A stretch of DNA of 64,000 nt from Symbiodinium sp. CCMP2592 (Eukaryota > Sar > Dinophyceae > Suessiales > Symbiodiniaceae): positions 2,158,923 to 2,222,922 of the forward strand of contig CAJNDT010000002.1 in assembly GCA_905221615.1 (NCBI GenBank), read 5' to 3'. Under the pieces are notes generated by a model, which searched no databases, was not told the origin of the DNA, and saw only the letters and a program-made list of their open reading frames with translations. The position numbers were made by a program, and so were the translations under genes. Positions 5,120-57,481 of the stretch are shown here, piece after piece. How positions within the stretch are numbered: position 1 is the stretch's first letter; every line of letters begins with the position of its first letter.

Positions 5120-5236
5120 GACCTTGCATGGTCTGTCGGGCTGGCAGGGTAAGACGACCATGCCGACTCGGACTGCAGGCTCAAGCATTGTTAGTTGAGG
5201 AAGAGGATCGAACATAGAGTTGCCTGCTTCAAAATC

Positions 5237-6986
5237 ATGGTGCAGGTGCAGGAGCCCCAGGACTACGTCGACGTGCTTCAGTCCCACCGCGGCGGTTTCA
5301 GCTTCGAGAACTGCAAGAGAAATGCGTACTTGGCAGCTCAGGCAGGAATCAAGCCGCCAACAGCCATGAAGTCCGGCACCACGATCTGTGGCATCGTCGT
5401 CAAGGATGCCGTGATCCTAGCCGCCGACACCCGTGCCACGAATGGCCCCATGGTAGCAGACAAGAACTGCGAGAAGCTCCACTACATCGCGAAGAACATT
5501 TTCTGCGCAGGCGCCGGCACTGCCGCAGACCTCATGCACACTACCGAAATGATGGAGTCGCAGATCGAGCTGCTTCGCATGGCCACGGGTACTCAGCCCC
5601 GAGTGTGTACGGTGGTGAAGCGGTTGAGTTCCATGCTCTTCAAGTACCTGGGCTTTGGAGCATCATACTTTAATACTTTTTGGGAACCTGCTACTTAAAG
5701 TGAACCAACTCTTTTTTTAAAGTCCTCATTTTTTCCCTGGTCACCCCTCTACCCTTAACCCTAAACCCTGGTCACTTCCACGCCCAGGTACCAGGGCTAC
5801 ATCGGTTGTGCCTTAGTCCTCGGAGGCTTTGATGTGAATGGCCCCCACCTGCACCTTGGCTGTTCTGGAGAAAAACCTTGCTTTGTCAACGAAGACTCTG
5901 CAACAACTAGAGCAAGCATGGTCCCCTGTGAAAATCTCAACACTATCCAGTTACCCTCAACCCTGCACCCTGAACCCTCAACTCTTCACATTATACCGTA
6001 AGCCTCAGCCAACCCCGACAGCCTAAACCCCTAAGCCCTAAACATCCGAGTGTGAGCATCATATAACCGTAAACATCAAGCCTCAGACAATTTCGAAAAA
6101 AATCCTAAACTCCAGGTACCAGATCTACCCCCATGGCTCCACCGACAAGCTTCCCTTCACTACCATGGGTAGCGGCTCGTTGGCTGCTATGGCCATCATG
6201 GAAGCCGAGTACAATGAGAACATGAGCATCTTACTTGGTTAAGGGTTTTGGTGTGGGCTGTGAGATCAGTGTTGTGGGTTCAATACAAGATGTTTTACTT
6301 CCACAGAGCTATAGCAGTCCCGTTAAGGTTCTGTACGGCTTTGGGAAGGGTTTCTGGTTTCTGGCTTTATCTTCTCTATTCCATACAACGGTTGCGTGAG
6401 TTTTTGTCTTCTTAAAACCAAGCATGACCAGAACCTGTCAGTTTTGTTTGTTCGGTGGAATTGGTCATGTAAGGCATCGAGGAAGGCAAGAAGCTGGTGG
6501 CCAAAGCAATTCGTGCAGGCAGGGTTTAAGGTTTAAGGTTTAGCGAGGTTCGATTGACCTCCAGGGACTGACCAGAGCCTAGCACCCTCTGGGCTTAGGG
6601 TGCGGAATAAGGGCTTCCAGCCTTTTGCCTGAGCCCTTTCCTTAAACCCTAGACCGTAGACCCTGGGGCGCAGGCATCTTCAACGATCTGGGGTCTGGTG
6701 GCAACGTGGATGTGTGCGTAATCACGAAAGACGGTGGTGGCAACATCCTGAGAAACTGGGTTCTTGTTAAGGAACTTCTTGTGAGCTGCCATAATAAGGG
6801 TGTAAGGAACTGGTTTGATAACTTCAGTTAAGTTCCTTTAAAAAGAACCCAGGAAACTACGAGAAGCCCAATGAGCGCAAGTTCCGGGCTCAGCACAAGG
6901 CCTTCCCGAAGGGCACCACGCCAGTGTTGAAGGAAGAGATCATGAAGCTTGTCTCCGTCGAAGAGGACGTCGTCATGAGAGACTGA
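5237..6986 (+). CDS. PSMB7: Proteasome subunit beta type-7 (beta-2), six exons
   Basis: Catalytic beta-2 subunit of the 20S proteasome, giving trypsin-like cleavage. Exons 5237-5643, 5788-5850, 6116-6225, 6474-6518, 6674-6751 and 6853-6986 sum to 837 bases, 278 codons plus TGA, matching the family length of about 277. The propeptide carries a GGFSFENC block. Processing before Thr48 (context SGTTICG) leaves the N-terminal nucleophile; Asp64 (AADTR) and Lys80 (NCEKLH) fall where mature Asp17 and Lys33 belong. Later family blocks [19 protein letters not shown] and [14 protein letters not shown] are present. The start is the ATG at 5237; a TTG at 5195 only extends the open frame. Inferred donors are GT, GC, GC, GC and GA, and every acceptor is AG followed by G. 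The family identity is certain; the exact splice positions are inferred from frame and homology. Confidence 0.95.
5644..5787 (+). other. PSMB7 intron 1 (GT-AG)
   Basis: The donor reads GTACCTGGG and the first exon bases after the acceptor read GTACCAGGG, so the intron sits between near-identical 9-base sequences. Its interior holds CCCTAAA-like units. Splicing here restores the LFKYQGYIG run typical of beta-2 subunits. Confidence 0.85.
5851..6115 (+). other. PSMB7 intron 2 (GC-AG)
   Basis: No GT donor keeps the reading frame. A GC donor (GCACCTTGG) joined to the acceptor CCAG before GTACCAG gives GPHLYQIYPHG, which matches the conserved family segment without gap. The intron is rich in CCCTAAA-like units. 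Confidence 0.75.
6226..6473 (+). other. PSMB7 intron 3 (GC-AG)
   Basis: The donor GCATCTT and the exon start GCATCGA share GCATC. Joining AACATGA to GCATCGAGG keeps the frame ([11 protein letters not shown]). The exact cut can slide within the shared bases. Confidence 0.75.
6519..6673 (+). other. PSMB7 intron 4 (GC-AG)
   Basis: GCAGGCA occurs at both edges (CGTGCAGGCAGGG and GCGCAGGCATC). A GC donor joined to a CAG acceptor gives [10 protein letters not shown] in frame. Confidence 0.75.
6752..6852 (+). other. PSMB7 intron 5 (GA-AG)
   Basis: The donor edge is A|GAAACTGG and the acceptor edge CCAG|GAAACTAC. The joint gives LRNYEKPNE in frame. A GA donor is rare outside dinoflagellate-type splicing. 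The shared GAAACT forms a direct repeat around the intron. Confidence 0.7.
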
Positions 6987-8099: not shown

Positions 8100-8386
8100 G
8101 GGTGTTTTTTTTGGGGACTTTGGGGTTGAGTTCCAGGGCTTGGGGCCTGGGCTTAACCCGACTCTCGGGTTCAAGAAGCTTTGGAAAAAACCTGGCCAAT
8201 CACCCTCAAGCCCTAAATCCGAAGCTCTGAGCCGTAAATCCGAAGACCTGAGCCTTAAATCCTAAAGCCAGAACCCCCAAAACCATCCAAAACCCAAGCC
8301 CTCGACCCCATCGGCCCTCATAACCCTGAAGCCAGAAACCCCAAGCCCGAAGCCCAAAAGCTGCGCGCAGTCGCTCGCGGCACGAA

Positions 8387-8495
8387 CCCAGAGACTCCAA
8401 TATCCCTTAATTAAGGAATATCCCTTAAATCATATTAGGGGTCTTACCATAAATTGAGGTATATTCCTTGATTAAGGGATATTGGAGTCTCTGGG
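8387..8495. mobile_element. Foldback family C
   Basis: CCCAGAGACTCCAATATCCC and its complement at 8476-8495 form near-perfect ends of more than 30 bases, rich in TTAATTAAGG. Confidence 0.88.
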
Positions 8496-8505
8496 AAGGT
8501 GGAAG

Positions 8506-10323: not shown

Positions 10324-10638
10324 GTGTGTCTCCTATGATGGCAGATGCGCATGCGATGGCTTTTCAGACTGTGCATGATTCATTGTTTCGCGATGATCAA
10401 GTCATACTGTTATTAAGTCTCCTTTCTGATAGTGCTATTGCTAAAGTGGTCAGTGTGAGTGTGTAGCCACGAGTGCTACAGCATTCGCCGTTCCCCGGCA
10501 AGACTTCAAGAGGCCTGGATGCAAAAAGGGTTCAACAAGTGCACATTGCAATGCAAGAAGCTTGTTTCGGGTTCAGAGCTTGGCCGCTTAGTTCTACTGC
10601 TACTTGCTGGTTACACACTGAAATCCTGAATCTTGAGC

Positions 10639-10770
10639 CAAACAGCGATTCAATCCATATGCCAGGAGGGCGGCTACTTCCCCACGGACCTAAATTGTGG
10701 CAGCCGATGGCGCGGGGCCCTCAGTGAGCACACCTCCGGCGCTCCTGGGCATTCCCTTGCCCAAAGCGTA
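10639..10770 (+). CDS. Exon-like island, unidentified
   Basis: The frame QTAIQSICQEGGYFPTDLNC is open with protein-like composition and continues to about 10770 before CCCTAAA-like intron sequence begins. No family recognised and no splice partner found. Confidence 0.22.
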
Positions 10771-11125: not shown

Positions 11126-11235
11126 GTAACCCCTAAACCCTCAACCCTAAACCGTGAAACCCTAAACCCTAAACCCTAAACCCTAAACCCTCAACCCTAA
11201 ACCCTAAACCCTCAACCCTAAACCGTGAAATCCTA
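11126..11235. repeat. Interstitial telomere-like array
   Basis: About a dozen CCCTAAA units, some altered to CCCTCAA or CCGTGAA. Confidence 0.9.
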
Positions 11236-16540: not shown

Positions 16541-17561
16541 TGGGGTACCATACTTGAATGCTTTTTTTTTGGACTTGTTCCTCAAAGGAACCATTCCTGA
16601 TTGGTTACTTCAAAGTCCAGGAACTGTGACCATCAAGGGGATTGATGAGAGCTGGGCATTGCAGAGGGGGCGGTCACGGCCGGTATGCTTGTCTTCAGTG
16701 ATGAGTGATAGTATTTGGGCTAAACCAAAGGCTGCCTAACAGTCTGCTGTCTGCTAGTTTTGCCGCAGCTGTTTGTTACGGCTGCCGTCTTCGCGGTCGT
16801 CGTTGTTGTGGCTGCTGCTGTCGTCGATGCTCTTTTCTTAGCAAGGTTGTAAAACGTGCCGGGTGACGAAGGCACAGTTGCTACCAGCTGGCGCGGCTGC
16901 ATGTTGATGCGAACTGTGAGATGCCTTTGGACCCCTTTGGTATCTGCTGTAGACGGTCATCTAGGATCTAGAACTGCTCCACACGAGCCTTGGGAGCGAC
17001 CCTATCGCCTAAAAGCACATTTCCAACATTTTCCAATCCGACAATCCAGACCCGCAGTCGCTCAAGTTGATACTTCCAAAGTATGAAGCCTGTGAGGAAG
17101 TTCTTCCTGGTGACCCTTTCAGTTGCTGGCTCGGCTCTTGCATGGAAAGTGGGGCCGCCATGCAGCAGAACTCCCGTCTTTCTGTTTGTTGTAAGTTCAG
17201 GGTTCAGGGCGTCCGAAGCCACTGAGGCTATGGGCTTGGGAATGCAGATCACTTGACGGTAAGAAGTAGCAGCAGGAGGAGACTGGCGTCTGTTCCCCTA
17301 CGTTCCCTTGCTGTGGCCGTGGACTGCAACATTCGGAGTGAATTTTTCTGCTTGAATGCTTGCATGCAGTATGGCTCCGAACCCCAGTTCTGCTTCTTCC
17401 TTCGTATTTGAAAGAGGCATCCTTCCTCTTTCCGCCCTTACAGGCAAGCTAGCTTATAGGTGTGGGCCATTATTTTGCCTAGTTTTGTGGGTTGAGGTAG
17501 TTTGGGGTTGTTCAAGGGGGGGGAGAGAAGCCTGCTGAAACAGGTAGTTTGCGCTTGAAAT

Positions 17562-17669
17562 CCAGAGACTCCAAGATCCCGTAATTGAGGAATATGCCTT
17601 AACTCATCACAGGGATCCTACCATGATTCAAGGTATATTCCTTAATTAAGGGATGTTAGAGTCTCTGGG
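17562..17669. mobile_element. Foldback family C
   Basis: CCAGAGACTCCAAGATCCC at the left and GGGATGTTAGAGTCTCTGG at the right. An exon-like island starts 21 bases downstream. Confidence 0.85.
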
Positions 17670-17690
17670 AAGCCTGCCCATTCAGCTCAG

Positions 17691-17756: not shown

Positions 17757-18115
17757 GGAGATCTACAGTTAGAGTGTGCGGCTTGAAAGTGTAGAGTTTC
17801 GGGCTTTCTGGGCTACCATAGAAATCTAAATTTAGAGTTTGGGGCTTTATGGGCTACCATAGAAATCTAAATTTAGAGTTTGGGGCTTTATGGGCTACCA
17901 TGAGAGTGTAGAACTTTGGTTGTTGGGGGTTTGGCTCTTGGCTTTATGGGCTACCATCTGAGCAAACGTGGGGCTATATGGGCGACCATCTAAGTGTAGA
18001 AGCTGGGTCTTTATGGGCTACCACAGAGATCTAAATTGAGATTTTGGGGCTTTATGGGCCGCCATAGAAATCTACGTTTAGAGCTTGGGGTTAGCGGCTA
18101 CCACAGAGATTTAAA
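17747..18115 (+). repeat. Tandem array seeded by an exon edge
   Basis: About eight imperfect units of roughly 40-50 bases carry GGGCTACCATAGAGATCTAA and TTTAGAGTTTGGGGCTTTAT. The first unit overlaps the 3' end of the exon-like island at 17691-17756. Confidence 0.85.
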
Positions 18116-18435: not shown

Positions 18436-18511
18436 GGGCTCGTCCTTGCTAGGTTAGCAAAAACCCTTAACGCCAACCAAGCGCAAACCTGGCACCCTCC
18501 ATTCTGAAACC
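18436..18511 (+). repeat. Left bipartite direct repeat flanking the viral insert
   Basis: GGGCTCGTCCTTGCTAGGT (18436-18454) and ACCCTCCATTCTGAAACC (18494-18511) recur in the same order at 22704-22768, downstream of the viral frame. Confidence 0.7.
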
Positions 18512-18532
18512 CTAAACCCTAAACCCTGGCTA

Positions 18533-21274
18533 CAAGGTGCCACAAATATCGACGATGTCCTTCTCATCTTGAAAACCGCAACCAAAGTCGGGACTGCACT
18601 TGCAGAAGAGTTATTTTCCAAGTTAGAGGACGTGTATCGAAGATTGGGATACATCATTGATCGAACTAAATCCTTGTTGTCTGATCGCAAGTGCGTCTTG
18701 CTCAGTCGATACTTTGTGGATGGCGTGGAACTGATGGTCCCTTTGAAGACGTGCATTCGAGCTGCGAAGTCTTTGAAGAATGATCTTCCCAATTTGCATG
18801 ATACCGTTAGAGCCAAGTATGCCTATTACAAATCCTTGGAGTTGCAAAGCGGCAGCACTTACATTGTCGAGTACCTGAAGTACTGCGACGTCTTTGAAAC
18901 ACTGATTGAGTTCACAACTCCCAACGCTGATCTGAACGCCTTGGTATCGATGCTCTTTTTGCCAATTACGCTTGGAGGATTCGGCTTCCATGACCCTATA
19001 TCTGAGAACAGAACCGGCGATCGGGACGCTTTGTCGTATTCAGCTGCTTTATGCTGCAAGAACACAAAGAATGATGCCTTAGTTCCTGATGACCTCGAAG
19101 AGATTGCTTTGTGCATCCTTGGCATGTTTGAAGGCTTGGAAGTTAAGAAAGTTTCTCCTCTCTCTGTCTGTCGAAATGTATTTAGCGTTGTGCCAGTGAT
19201 TCCTGTGTCTGGGGCGGATCTCATCAGACGTCAAAGCGCAGTCGCGTGTCGCAAGATGCTCCAAAAAGACAAATGGAGACTTCCTGAGAACGACATTGAC
19301 ATCCTGAACCAGAGTCTGGAACTGCTTCTGAAGACTGGCAGTCATCAGGCCCAGACACTCAAGAATGTTGTGGCGGGTACTTACTCCTCCCTCTACATAG
19401 ATTCACTTGAGCGATTTGAGGGCTGTGCTGCTGTTTTCATAACTGGAAAAGCCCGAAAAGGTATCACTATCAAGGCTGTGTCACTTGATAGGCTCTATAT
19501 GAGCAAGATGTTGTCGCTCATTTGCTGCAACAAGCTTACAAAAAACAAGAAGGACTATGGCTGGCAATATGCTCAGGACATCAGGTTCAGATTTCATCGT
19601 ATGAACAACTGTGAGATCTTTGGGAGCACATACCCATCCTGTCTGGACATCATTGGTTTTGCGTCTAACACGCAGGCTGGAGCAGCTTCAGTCAGATTGG
19701 ACACCAGAGAGATTGACGACCCTTTGAGCGTGTCCACACTATACCCTGCCATGATGAGGAGCAAGCGAGGAATTCGACTGCTTATCAAACCTTCTACAAT
19801 AAGCAATACCCTTGACGTCGCAACAGATCGTATGAATGTCTGGCAGGCGAAAGTCTCGAGAGCGCTTGTGGCTATAGCCGAAGAAGCTCAGCGGCACTCC
19901 AATGCTGACCGGTATTACCTCTTTCTTTGCGCCTCATGGCAGGTCCCGAGCTCTCACAAGCCACTTACTCGGGAAATCGAGAATTTGCTTAAAAAGGTCT
20001 CAGCCAAGAGATCTCTTCTTTCTGTTCACGCCTCTCTGTATACGACTGGCGAGGCCAAAAACATCTACTCTTCGTCTTCATCAGACACCTCAAAGGCTTG
20101 GGAACCTCTGAGAGCACTGGGACATCTTTCTGATGTCCTGGAAGTGGATACTCATGCGAGGATGTGCATGTGTGTCAATTGCCTACATGCATTTCGCAAA
20201 TTTCCTCTTGCAAAGATGAGACTTGCAAAGATCGAGTGGGAATTGACGGTCGACATTAATGGTGCCATGCTTGTCGACCAGGCACCTTTCGTCTCAAGCG
20301 GCTTGGAAAATTCGAAGTTGATGAATCTTCTGGCGCCCATTCAAGTCCCAGATGAACTACGGAAAAACGTCTGGGATATTTTGTGTGAAGATGGCGAGAA
20401 GCGGTCTTCAATCGTTGATCGTCTCTCAAGAGCTTTCCTTGAAGACTCAGCAATTCAGAGCTTGGACGAAGTCCCGCAAAACCAGATTTCAGAGTATATT
20501 TCTTCGCGGGACTATGTGGGCATGCAGCAGTTGGGCGATAACACTTTCTACTCGGATCAATGCCTCATCAGCCACAAGTTGCCAGCTGGTACAATTTTCA
20601 GGTCCAGTTGGCTGAACATCATCAACGAGTTGAGGCGCCAAATTTACTCTGATTGCGACTCTGTATTCGATTTGCCTAAAGCCGGTTCCAGACTACCTGA
20701 TCTATGCAAGAAGTGTGAGATCAATCCGACAATAAGGCAAATTTTTACTATGGATGAGTACATCAGTTTTTCACTTTTCCTTGAAACAAATGAATCAGTT
20801 GTCCCACTCGAAAGATCTTTTTACTGCACAGTCGGTGCAAACATGAGCCTCACAGATCTGTTTCCTACCGCAACAAGAAGGGGCAACTTGGCTGAGCTCA
20901 ACAATGGGATTCGTCAACAAATTGGCGTTCAACTGAGGGCCAGCCTTTTTCGAATAGCAGTGAAGCAGATGAGTGGCGCAAAACACAACCTGCCTCATTT
21001 TATGGGATACTTGACTATTACGAATGATGGTGGAGTCAACCTCAACCAGGTTCAACAGAATCTGGAGTCTCTCGTGAAAGTTCTTGTGGAGTCAGCTGGG
21101 AGCTCAATTTATGAGAAGAAAGACTTTTCAGACGCCATCGTCGCCAACTTGTGGAGGAGTGCTAGGCCTTTTGACGTTTTGTCATCTGCATTTAGCAAGG
21201 TTGATGATCGAGTGAACCAGGCCACTTGCACCATGATGAATCACATCCATGAGATATATGATGTTATCTTCTAA
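18533..21274 (+). CDS. Endogenous viral element: partial L polymerase of a non-segmented negative-strand RNA virus
   Basis: The open frame runs about 900 codons to TAA at 21272 with no internal stop. There is no ATG at its 5' edge: the frame runs on upstream into telomere-like DNA through a CTACAAG|GTGCC junction that resembles a splice acceptor. Residues below are counted from the TTG at 18569. Order of features follows Mononegavirales-type L proteins: RLGYIIDRTKSLLSDR and the RYFVDGVELMVPLKT block expected just after the polymerase GDNQ motif; LGGFGF (135-140) followed by RTGDRDAL (148-155), like the conserved GG...R.GDP.T region; FGSTYPSC (351-358), like the GVTTPHP block of the capping domain; a CxCx2CxH cluster (533-540) and CKKC (713-716). 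The catalytic palm upstream and the methyltransferase end are missing, so it is a middle fragment of a protein normally about 2,000 residues long. Third codon positions are richer in A/T than in the proteasome gene. Family-level placement is not possible by eye. Confidence 0.82.
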   Translation, partial: QGATNIDDVLLILKTATKVGTALAEELFSKLEDVYRRLGYIIDRTKSLLSDRKCVLLSRYFVDGVELMVPLKTCIRAAKSLKNDLPNLHDTVRAKYAYYKSLELQSGSTYIVEYLKYCDVFETLIEFTTPNADLNALVSMLFLPITLGGFGFHDPISENRTGDRDALSYSAALCCKNTKNDALVPDDLEEIALCILGMFEGLEVKKVSPLSVCRNVFSVVPVIPVSGADLIRRQSAVACRKMLQKDKWRLPENDIDILNQSLELLLKTGSHQAQTLKNVVAGTYSSLYIDSLERFEGCAAVFITGKARKGITIKAVSLDRLYMSKMLSLICCNKLTKNKKDYGWQYAQDIRFRFHRMNNCEIFGSTYPSCLDIIGFASNTQAGAASVRLDTREIDDPLSVSTLYPAMMRSKRGIRLLIKPSTISNTLDVATDRMNVWQAKVSRALVAIAEEAQRHSNADRYYLFLCASWQVPSSHKPLTREIENLLKKVSAKRSLLSVHASLYTTGEAKNIYSSSSSDTSKAWEPLRALGHLSDVLEVDTHARMCMCVNCLHAFRKFPLAKMRLAKIEWELTVDINGAMLVDQAPFVSSGLENSKLMNLLAPIQVPDELRKNVWDILCEDGEKRSSIVDRLSRAFLEDSAIQSLDEVPQNQISEYISSRDYVGMQQLGDNTFYSDQCLISHKLPAGTIFRSSWLNIINELRRQIYSDCDSVFDLPKAGSRLPDLCKKCEINPTIRQIFTMDEYISFSLFLETNESVVPLERSFYCTVGANMSLTDLFPTATRRGNLAELNNGIRQQIGVQLRASLFRIAVKQMSGAKHNLPHFMGYLTITNDGGVNLNQVQQNLESLVKVLVESAGSSIYEKKDFSDAIVANLWRSARPFDVLSSAFSKVDDRVNQATCTMMNHIHEIYDVIF

Positions 21275-22703: not shown

Positions 22704-22768
22704 GGGCTTCGTCCTTGCTAGGTAGGAGGGAAAAAAACCCTAAACCCTAAACCCTCCATTCTGAAACC
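22704..22768 (+). repeat. Right bipartite direct repeat flanking the viral insert
   Basis: GGGCTTCGTCCTTGCTAGGT (22704-22723) and ACCCTCCATTCTGAAACC (22751-22768) repeat the sequence found just upstream of the viral frame. The first half also occurs near 57245, where it is followed by the same GGAAGGAAAAAAA run. Confidence 0.7.
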
Positions 22769-22847
22769 TGAAGCCATCGAGCAGAAGTGTGCTTTATCAT
22801 GAGGTTCTGGAGACGCCTAGCACTCAGCATGTGCTAAAAAAGGGGCT

Positions 22848-23455
22848 TCAATAATTACCCTATACTATTTTGGGCGTTCCTTATTGTATATAATCATAGT
22901 AGGATGGGCCATGTAAGCTTCAATAAGTACCCTATACTTTTTTGGGCGTTCCTTATTGTATGTAATCATAGTAGGATGGGCCATGTAAGCTTCAATAAGT
23001 ACCCTATACTATTTGGGGCGTTCCTTATTGTATATAATCATAGTAGGATGGGCCATGTAAGCTTCAATAAGTACCCTATACTTTTTTGGGCGTTCCTTAT
23101 TGTATGTAATCATAGTAGGATGGGCCATGTAAGCTTCAATAAGTACCCTATACTATTTGGGGCGTTCCTTATTGTATATAATCATAGTAGGATGGGCCAT
23201 GTAAGCTTCAATAAGTACCCTATACTTTTTTGGGCGTTCCTTATTGTATGTAATCATAGTAGGATGGGCCATGTAAGCTTCAATAAGTACCCTATACTAT
23301 TTGGGGCGTTCCTTATTGTATATAATCATAGTAGGATGGGCCATGTAAGCTTCAATAAGTACCCTATACTTTTTGGGCGTTCCTTATTGTATGTAATCAT
23401 AGTAGAATGGGCCACAAAACCCTATTCTAATCATTGAGGTCTCTATATGAGAGGT
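22848..23455. mobile_element. Foldback family B element expanded by an internal 72-base tandem array
   Basis: The outer ends (GGGGCTTCAATAATTACC and the AAAACCCTATTCTAATCATT side) match family B foldbacks. Between them, about eight 72-base units alternate between two subtypes, so the true period is 144 bases. Because 72 is a multiple of three, the array stays open for 177 codons, but this is not evidence for a protein. Confidence 0.85.
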
Positions 23456-25628: not shown

Positions 25629-25940
25629 TCCGAGGCTCCAATGTCCCTGTATTAGGGAATGAGACCTTACGACTTAAGCTCTACAGGGGGAATCCTACCG
25701 AAATTTGGGGTGGATCCCTGAATTAAGAAATTATACCTTAAGCCTTAAGCCCTATTTAAGGAATCCTACCAAAATTTGGGGTAGACTGCTTAATTAAGGA
25801 ATGATACCTTAAGCCCTATTAGGGCATCCTACTAAAACTTAAGGTAGGTTCCCCAATTGAGAGATGATACCTTAAGTCCTATTAGGAATCCTACTAAATT
25901 TAAGGTCGATTCCTTAATTGAGGGATGTTGGAGTCTCGGG
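25629..25940. mobile_element. Foldback family C expanded by internal tandem units
   Basis: The outer ends (CCGAGGCTCCAATGTCCC and GGGATGTTGGAGTCTCGGG) enclose four roughly 65-75-base units containing CTTAAGCCCTATTTAAGGAA and ATCCTACCAAAATTTGGGG. Confidence 0.8.
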
Positions 25941-25950
25941 GGCTTCTCTC

Positions 25951-34218: not shown

Positions 34219-35433
34219 TCTAAAAGGGATGACAGGTAACTGAGTCCGTGAGAGAGAGAAAAGGGATCTATAATAAAGGTTGAGGATTCATATACAGTTG
34301 GGGGTGAAGGGTTTGGGTGGGTTGACGGTTGGGGCTTTCGCTTCAGGGCTTTGAGGGCTTTTGGGATTCTGTGTTTGGGTTTGGGCTTGAGCATCTGGGA
34401 AAGTTGGTATGTTGTCCTCGGTTTTTTTGCTGACGCTTTGGGACTTAGGCTGTTGTGATCATTAGGTATGCTGGTTGTGCCACTTAAGGCAGTACTCGCA
34501 ATCTGTTTCATAGGCAGCGTGGATGCAAAGGGTAAGGGGTTTCGGGAAATGCCGAGGTCGGGTTACGGGTTTCACGGTGGGGGCCCCCTCAAACCCCCAT
34601 GCTCTTCGATGGTCCCTGATATCCTGTGGTCCTTTACCCAGAGACTGGGGCACCGCAGACTCCGAACTCGTAGTCCCACAACCCGGAATGTTCTAATCCC
34701 CATCACTCTTTCTGCCGAAACCCTAGAAAGCTTACAAAGCCTCAAACCCCAAAGCGGTCTGAGTTGTGAGGGTGTAAAGCCCCTGAACCCCTCAAGCCCC
34801 TGTGGAACCCTTGCAGAACCTCTAAGAACAAGAACTCGAACTATTCCAGAACCATGATGAAGCCCCTTAATTAAGCTGATGCACCGAAAGACGAGGAAAC
34901 AAAGTGGCTGTCGTCTCCGGAGAATGCAGAGTTGGCTCTTCGGCTAGAGTTAATGGGGGTCAGGGTATCCCTAACATGGACCCTGCATAGCAGGGTAGGT
35001 TTTTTTCGTTATTTGGGGGTCGGAGTTCGGGGATGAAAGGCTAAGGGCACAAGCTGCTAGTGTCAAGCTTGAGGGCTGAGGTACTTGAGCTTCGTTTAGG
35101 GGGTTCGGGGCTCAGTTCTTTTGGCGTAGTTGGGTGAATCGCCCCGGAGAGTGCACCGTTCTTTGAGGCCCGAAGCAGATGCAGCACAAAGGGGGCTGCT
35201 TTACCTCTGTAGTTCCGCTGAATTCTTCAAGAACGTGTTGAACGCTTCGCCGAACCGATCGCGAGATTCACATAACTACAGCTTGCCATCCATAAGGGAA
35301 GTCCACCTTCCGACAAGCATGGCCACAAGTTGTTAAGAATTTCGCTCGCCCCCCACCAATCTATGCACCTCGTTTGGGCAATGCTTCCCTAAGCGCTCAG
35401 CTCTGCCTCAAACATCCAGGCCGGTAGAATCCC

Positions 35434-35640
35434 TAAACTCTGAACCCTATACCCTAAACCCAAACCCCAAAACCCTATACCCACAACCCCTGAACCCAAA
35501 ACCCTAAACCCTAAACCCCAAACCCCTAATCCCTAAACCCTAAACCCCAAAACCCTAAACCCACAACCCTGGACCCTAAACCCCTAAACCCTAAACCCTA
35601 AAACCTAAACCTAAAAAAAAACAAAGAACCCTAAACCTTC
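35434..35640. repeat. Telomere-like array filling a candidate intron
   Basis: CCCTAAA, CCCCTAAA and CCCAAAA variants occupy almost all of 35434-35640. Imperfect direct repeats lie on both sides (35411-35428 and 35652-35669). Confidence 0.85.
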
Positions 35641-48205: not shown

Positions 48206-48253
48206 GTCCTTTTGCTTTTGGTTCGTTTGTAGAGTTTTGCGGGTCTCTAGGGT

Positions 48254-48352
48254 TCCCAGAGACTCCAATATCCCTTAAATTAAGGAATATACTTCAAATC
48301 ATACTAGGATCCCTAATAAGATTTAAGGAATATTCCTTAACTAAGTGGTTTT
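48254..48352. mobile_element. Foldback family C, right end degraded
   Basis: CCCAGAGACTCCAATATCCC left end and the family core ATACTAGGATCCCTAATAAG are present; the right end diverges after CCTTAACTAAG. Confidence 0.7.
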
Positions 48353-48691
48353 GGACTTCCAATGGGTTCAGCTCCAGTCTGTGTAGCCTGGCCGGAGCCT
48401 TTGAGTTTTGAGTCGGCAATTTTACTAGCAAGGGTCGTCCGCAAACCAACATCAAGAATTCTGCAGCTTGGGTCTCTGCGACTGTTTCTTGCGGATCGTT
48501 CTCTCCCAGACCCCGGGGAGGATCTAGAATCCAGAAAGTAGAGCCCCTAATTTGGGGCCCGATACTACTACGGGTGCTTTGTAGGAACCCCATTAAGGGA
48601 TCTACTTTTGGGATCCTCCCGGGGGTCGTTCTCTGCGGTAGAGAGGCGCAAGGTTTTCTGAGGAGCAGACCTCGGGATAAAATGTCTGACT

Positions 48692-50871: not shown

Positions 50872-51150
50872 AACCCTAACCCCTAAACCCCTAAACCCTG
50901 AACCCCTAAACCCTAAACCCCTAAACCCCTAAACCCTGAACCCCTAAACCCTAAACCCCTAAACCCTGAACCCTGAACCCCTAAACCCTGAACCCCTAAA
51001 CCCTGAACCCCTAAACCCTAAACCCCTAAACCCCTAAACCCTGAACCCCTAAACCCTAAACCCCTAAACCCTGAACCCCTAAACCCTAAACCCCTAAACC
51101 CCTAAACCCTGAACCCCTAAACCCTAAACCCCTAAACCCTGAACCCCTAG
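50872..51150. repeat. Higher-order telomere-like array
   Basis: CCCCTAAA, CCCTGAA and CCCTAAA alternate in a recurring order over about 280 bases, so the array is built from larger composite units. Confidence 0.9.
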
Positions 51151-56612: not shown

Positions 56613-57235
56613 GTAAATACGAGCACAACACCACCAGTTATGCCGATGATCACTACGAGTATTGGATGTACGTAGTAGTACAGGGGCAGCAGCAGGGAGC
56701 AAGCATCCACTGTCGCGGTCGTCATTAGAAGCGTGTCCTCGTCGTCATGTGGTAGGCGGGATATGTGCTGGCAGATGCCTGGGAGTTGATAGCACGTAGT
56801 ATGGACATGACCGAGATTCTGATTCCCGTACAGGTTTCGTGGAAGGTCTTGAGGCCTTTAGAGCGTAGGGATTATCGAGGGCCTGCGTGAATCGTCCCAG
56901 ACTCCGTGCACTGGACTCTGACTCTGATGTGCAGGGTTGCGTAGTGGAATGGAGATGCTAAAGCGGAAGATCGAGGCAAGACACCAGCACAGATGCCGAG
57001 TAGCCTTCTGCTGCAACGGGGATTGAGGGTTTGAGGGTCTGTTGGGCTTCGGGAGTTTAGTATGCTTTTGTAGGTTTCTGCTTTGTCCCAAATGCAACCA
57101 AACCCAAGGCACTGATGCCAAACCCCGAAGGCCCTCCAACACCGAAGCCAAGTACCACTGAAGCATAGAACCTTAATTCCCGAAAGACGTTCCAAACCTC
57201 CAAACCTCTAAACCTAAAGCCCCCCAGAGTCACCC

Positions 57236-57278
57236 TGCAATGCGGGCTTTGTCCTTGCTAGGTAGGAAGGAAAAAAAG
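57236..57278 (+). repeat. Third copy of the TTGTCCTTGCTAGGT repeat
   Basis: CCTGCAATGCGGGCTTTGTC followed by CTTGCTAGGTAGGAAGG and a run of A matches 22692-22736 closely, so this is a dispersed repeat rather than a feature unique to the viral insert. Confidence 0.65.
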
Positions 57279-57481
57279 CCACCGCGAGACTTCGCACACC
57301 CTTAACCCCTGTAAGTAAGCTTAAGCCCTAAAAAAAGCCAGTCAGTGAGGTGCCCACAAAAACGTTTAAATCCCAAAAAGCACTCGGTCAGTGAGGTGCC
57401 TTGCCCCATTTGCCGGGCGGAAGGTGTTCTCGTGCCTCTTTCGAAGTTTGCTGGCAAGGCTCAGGGGTTTAGGGCTTATAC

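Follow-up and report, generated by a model that had tools for sequence, protein, structure and literature searches.

We report an uninterrupted frame of 913 codons in dinoflagellate nuclear DNA which, on its motifs, we read with modest confidence as an endogenous piece of a divergent qin-like L protein, either young or still under constraint and running from the RdRp motif C to the natural stop; that it stems from an L-type viral polymerase of some kind is the broader claim, and one of which we are appreciably surer. The sequence feature is real and lies in an alveolate; reading it as L-like, which draws on motifs and not on homology, is plausible but unproven. The frame lies in a window of 64 kb, this being the whole stretch of DNA that was analyzed, and the features discussed below are collected in Table 1.

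Table 1. Features of the frame and its flanks, with positions in the window and residues of the 913-aa frame
Feature	Positions	Strand	Residues	Remarks
Host flank	18437..18532	+		Imperfect dispersed-repeat copy ending in telomere-like (CCCTAAA)n; abuts the ORF
Candidate L-type viral RNA polymerase fragment	18533..21274	+	1-913	913 codons and stop; motif C to C-terminus, proposed
IDD, candidate RdRp motif C of Qinviridae type	18548..18556	+	6-8	In QGATN-IDD-VLLIL
Candidate post-active-site block	18653..18772	+	41-80	IDRTKS...LLSRYFVDGVEL...LKTCIR
LP..LGGFGF...RTGD..ALS block	18956..19060	+	142-176
PRNTase motif A-like segment	19583..19636	+	351-368	RFRFHRMNNCEIFGSTYP; published pattern save W to H355
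Candidate PRNTase motif C	19841..19843	+	437	W437; the ORF has nine W
Candidate PRNTase motif D	19955..19960	+	475-476	H475-K476 (HR expected)
Cys/His-rich stretch	20150..20188	+		THARMCMCVNCLH; past the capping motifs
Downstream host flank	22706..22770	+		Second imperfect flank-repeat copy with telomere-like units

The frame and its setting in host DNA

The 913 codons span 18533-21271 on the plus strand and are closed by a stop codon at 21272-21274; measured from stop to stop the frame comprises 938 aa, having been open since 18458, and the figure of 913 aa is counted from 18533. The roughly 900 uninterrupted codons of the original prediction are therefore borne out. The longest stop-to-stop frame in 30 base-shuffled versions of the window was 261 codons, and the only other frames of at least 200 codons in the window are low-complexity ones, 204 and 279 codons long, near 56 kb. 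GC content at codon positions 1, 2 and 3 of the ORF is 0.488, 0.387 and 0.519, an inequality that matches the expectation for coding DNA.

The identity of the host emerges from a second ORF, at 5195-5695, which belongs to the proteasome family (Pfam, E 7.5e-24; beta-2/type-7 subunit) and has 1014 matches in the protein database. Among the 120 of these listed, the best transcript protein (P0005) shows 99% identity over 84% of the query, and the named relatives include ones from Pelagodinium (88%), Polarella (85%), Alexandrium catenella (82%) and Zooxanthella nutricula (80%), the first two names being completed from truncated forms. Exon 1 of the proteasome beta-2 gene occupies 5237-5647; the sequence after it has the character of an intron, into whose like a near-identical protein prediction (P0002) continues. 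When 20 other frames were scanned with Pfam, out of the 132 frames of at least 90 codons in the window (the ORF included), only the proteasome exon rose above a curated cut-off. The dinoflagellate telomere repeat is TTTAGGG (PMC11453091). Together, the relatives of the proteasome exon and the TTTAGGG-type repeats identify the host as a dinoflagellate, in keeping with the alveolate-type genome that had been predicted. As both lie on the same 64 kb as the ORF, which is what an endogenous viral element (EVE) in host nuclear DNA calls for, the ORF sits in dinoflagellate nuclear DNA, an assembly mis-join aside. Its GC3 is 0.52 as against 0.79 in the proteasome exon; this low value is as for sequence still unadjusted to the host, with a single exon providing a thin yardstick.

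The telomere-like surroundings that had been claimed were also recovered: the tract AAACCCTAAACCCTAAACCC, made of CCCTAAA units, ends at about 18527-18529, right where the ORF begins. Imperfect copies of one host repeat stand on both sides of the segment (18437-18507 and 22706-22770), and a third, partial copy is found at 57227-57280.

Several other repeats were observed in the window. Degenerate interstitial CCCTAAA tracts are numerous on both strands across the 64 kb (e.g. 11127-11224, 35431-35615 and 50874-51149). Just 5' of the ORF, a related 41-bp unit forms two arrays that have decayed unequally (17792-17901 and 17988-18114), and about 1.6 kb past it is a 72-bp tandem array (22845-23414; 7.9 copies, 95% match, two alternating variants), throughout which a single frame stays open (22838-23434). 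A dispersed repeat of about 110 bp has copies at 17559-17672, 8385-8498, 48249-48355 and about 25855-25941, those at 8385 and 48249 matching in both orientations, which gives the element a palindromic, MITE-like look.

Candidate polymerase-side and capping motifs

The ORF opens with QGATN-IDD-VLLIL (QGATNIDDVLLIL), whose IDD triplet, assigned to motif C by position rather than by alignment, lies just upstream of the block that the original prediction had named post-active-site, the triplet itself having gone unnoticed there. The motif C triplet is GDN in Mononegavirales, SDD in Yueviridae and mostly GDD in Chuviridae (PMC10101049, PMC11417338); IDD characterizes Qinviridae together with yue-like viruses from oomycetes and fungi that group with them, and as motif C it is confined to Qinviridae-type viruses in the literature consulted (PMC10101049, PMC11417338, PMC9927876). 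From the dinoflagellate Karenia brevis there is one uncertain RdRp-like candidate, with GDT (PMC9927876). A search of the ORF for SDD, GDD and GDN returned a single GDN, at residue 668, and none near the start; a second IDD occurs at residue 394, and the triplet can therefore be a product of chance. Further along, the block at about residues 41-80, which we take to resemble motifs D/E of L, is followed by LGGF at 147, RTGD at 160 and GSTYP at 364, so that the predicted order of post-active-site, LGG...RTGD and GSTYP blocks is present in full. Equating these blocks with those of an L protein is an interpretation, to which the searches lend no statistical support.

For the capping (PRNTase) domain, both the patterns of motifs A-E and the VSV reference spacing were taken from PMC4705655. 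The ORF departs from the motif A pattern in a single place (H355 for W), and W437 fits motif C. At the candidate motif D it has HK for HR, a position where K is unable to replace R in VSV (PMC4705655). The sole HR of the ORF (355) is out of register for motif D, and neither the motif B (GSxT) nor the motif E pattern was found in the ORF. Spacings compare with those of VSV as follows: 357 residues from the motif C aspartate to the G of PRNTase motif A (VSV 386), 73 from that G to W (VSV 88) and 38 from W437 to H475 (VSV 39). The Cys/His-rich stretch beyond bears at most a loose resemblance to the zinc-binding region of L.

Chance occurrence was gauged with 100,000 composition shuffles of the ORF, which holds nine W, three H[RK] and two IDD. 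The motif A core turned up anywhere in 59,603 shuffles, motif A with an aromatic residue or H in the W place in 2,927, the motif A core followed by W after 68-108 residues and then by H[RK] after a further 31-47 in 970, IDD within the first 33 residues in 777, and IDD near the start combined with that VSV-like core-W-H[RK] set in 0, counts which are descriptive rather than a test and overstate the case, the relaxed patterns having been framed post hoc from the ORF itself.

Proposed affiliation within the L proteins

The original prediction had assigned the ORF to a Mononegavirales-type L protein. Its L-type part stands insofar as block order and spacing are compatible with an L protein; the membership in Mononegavirales found no support. 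Against VSV L the ORF displays the same order and, in part, the same spacing of the post-active-site, LGG/RGD-like and GxTxP blocks, whereas GDN, motif B, HR in register, motif E and a Pfam match set VSV L apart. Scored on the Mononegavirales PRNTase motifs, A agrees save for W to H, C agrees at W437, D reads HK, and B and E are absent. Mononegavirales proper was accordingly rejected on the motif C triplet together with PRNTase motifs B, D and E.

The IDD leans towards a Qinviridae-type branch, which belongs to the same subphylum as Mononegavirales. Of the traits of a Qinviridae-type L, the ORF would possess IDD at the expected place (again with the positional assignment and the second IDD at 394 in mind) and partial, collinear PRNTase motifs. 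Per the ICTV, the qinvirid L combines an RdRp with a PRNTase that is kin to the Mononegavirales one (PMC10721934), and qin-like L proteins of protists measure 1679 aa (PMC10496375) and 1937 aa (PMC11108086). A piece of such a protein from motif C to the end would be expected at about the length of the ORF, in which 905 residues lie downstream of the IDD. Reverse transcriptases and positive-strand polymerases have far fewer residues after their DD. In sum, the L proteins of Qinviridae and qin-like viruses (order Muvirales) would resemble the ORF in the IDD at the presumed motif C position and in a PRNTase, of which the ORF has partial motifs, and their sizes fit 913 aa; the ORF, likened to them by motifs alone, differs in being without RdRp motifs A and B, in being integrated in DNA and in its alveolate host, the confirmed hosts of qin-like viruses being protists, namely two trypanosomatids (PMC11108086, PMC10496375). 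An EVE of the unicellular alga Bigelowiella natans is similarly an integrated RdRp-like sequence with an IDD motif C, but it has a cercozoan host, is represented by short transcripts and was found by an ssRNA+ RdRp profile (PMC9927876).

Searches for homologs

Absence of a significant match to L-protein profiles had been named in the original prediction as what would refute it, and this was the outcome, so that by its own criterion the Mononegavirales claim fails: Pfam returned zero families for the whole ORF and zero L families for 11 pieces (5, then 6). Matches of the pieces to Spectrin_3 (E 0.18 and 0.099) and DUF6510 (E 0.042) were under the curated cut-offs. A PDB sequence search with the whole ORF and three pieces, one of them residues 41-176, found no L protein; two matches to GTP cyclohydrolase I (E 0.77 and 0.82) and seven unrelated weak ones (E 0.33 to 1.4) were taken as chance. 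In a collection of 5.8 billion proteins, the whole ORF drew 7999 scored candidates, zero of them with E<=10, and residues 1-400 alone, with a wider length band, 7793 candidates and zero matches; this search depends on shared exact words and rules out close relatives only. The contrast with the 1014 matches of the proteasome exon indicates that the protein set does cover dinoflagellates. Among viral_contigs there were zero matches to the ORF, and an L motif A pattern hit 15 loci there, zero being L-like by frame length, which yielded no reference for comparison; genome_contigs yielded 10 pattern matches to the ORF with zero confirmed. A single match to a phage record (E 5) was taken as noise. 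Single-sequence AlphaFold models of the 913-aa frame (pLDDT 34.1) and of residues 225-575 (pLDDT 34.7) were uninformative. In short, homology to an L protein finds no statistical backing in any of these searches, a result to be set against all motif arguments. The missing L-profile match is nevertheless not decisive against an L origin, as the profiles may not reach qin-like L proteins.

Alternative explanations

The empty searches are also what would be seen if the ORF coded for an orphan or fast-evolving protein of the host (or of a DNA virus) unrelated to L, with motif fits that are partial, picked post hoc and in some cases common by chance. We deem this unlikely, though it is the foremost of the competing explanations: no relative appears in a protein set that covers dinoflagellates, GC3 is low (0.52), and several L-like blocks are collinear at fitting distances. 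Those same blocks (post-active-site, LGG...RTGD and GxTxP-like, in order), along with the motif A core, would equally suit an L fragment from another negative-strand group, be it Mononegavirales, Jingchuvirales, Yueviridae or an unnamed one, the IDD then being coincidental or outside motif C. Its frequency in shuffles and its recurrence at 394 allow for such a coincidence. GDN, GDD and SDD are, however, all absent near the ORF start, the motif B and E patterns and an HR in register are missing, and Pfam has zero L families; we rate this explanation slightly below the preceding one.

A fainter prospect is that the ORF represents the C-terminal portion of the reverse transcriptase (RT) encoded by a non-LTR retrotransposon (LINE). 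In Suessiales, LINE remnants are frequent and some RNA-virus EVEs have LINE-like sequences nearby (PMC10235124). Pfam, however, gave zero matches to RT, RNase H, endonuclease or zf-RVT, although the ORF would hold just the end of an RT domain, and neither a second copy in the window nor one among the proteins searched was seen, which is odd for a LINE. We take '..DDVLLIL...LGYIIDRTKS' to recall RT motifs C/D, and 'LP.TLGGFGFHDP' the LINE 'GGLGF.D' stretch. The 905 residues after the DD are long for a LINE.

Integration and age

Returning to a divergent qin-like L as the preferred source, the ORF would derive from the C-terminal half of the L of a negative-strand RNA virus, a highly divergent one within the subphylum Haploviricotina and most likely of the IDD-bearing qin-like branch. 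Going by precedent, host retroelement machinery would have made a DNA copy of plus-sense viral RNA, and this copy would have been joined to telomere-like repeat DNA, with loss of the part before motif C. The dinoRNAV EVEs of Symbiodiniaceae are a known case of dinoflagellate genomes carrying sequence from non-retroviral RNA viruses; they are positive-strand and persist as fragmented copies, unlike the single long frame of the ORF, and in one genome 6 of 26 RdRp ORFs have a spliced-leader relic within 500 bp (PMC10235124). Such a relic was not found here: the full relict pattern with up to 3 mismatches had 0 matches in the window, and the short form had 1 where 0.76 would be expected; it lies on the minus strand at 10632-10643, away from the ORF. 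A poly(A) tract 3' of the ORF stop was likewise not found.

Under a neutral model in which each transition was weighted four times each transversion and indels were ignored (2739 sites, nonsense fraction 0.033), the probability of remaining stop-free falls to 0.05 at 0.034 substitutions per site, so that either the insertion took place recently or the frame has been maintained. Considering the role of RdRp motifs A and B, a fragment without them should not be able to act as a working polymerase. Most likely, the ORF is a young relic that has yet to gather stops; host retention as a protein or as a source of small RNA is possible. We think it very improbable, though it may be entertained, that it is the intact capping/connector half of an unknown alveolate qin-like L kept as a host gene, e.g. 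as a decoy subunit against a living virus.

Implications

Among the titles and abstract openings surveyed, from a mainly open-access literature, the dinoflagellate EVEs are of positive-strand RNA virus and DNA-virus kinds, and none from a negative-strand RNA virus was found for alveolates. If our reading is true, the ORF would constitute physical, genomic evidence placing negative-strand RNA viruses of the L/PRNTase type in alveolates. It would also bear on the question of whether protists are the true hosts of qin-like viruses, as opposed to the animals in which most of these were sequenced.
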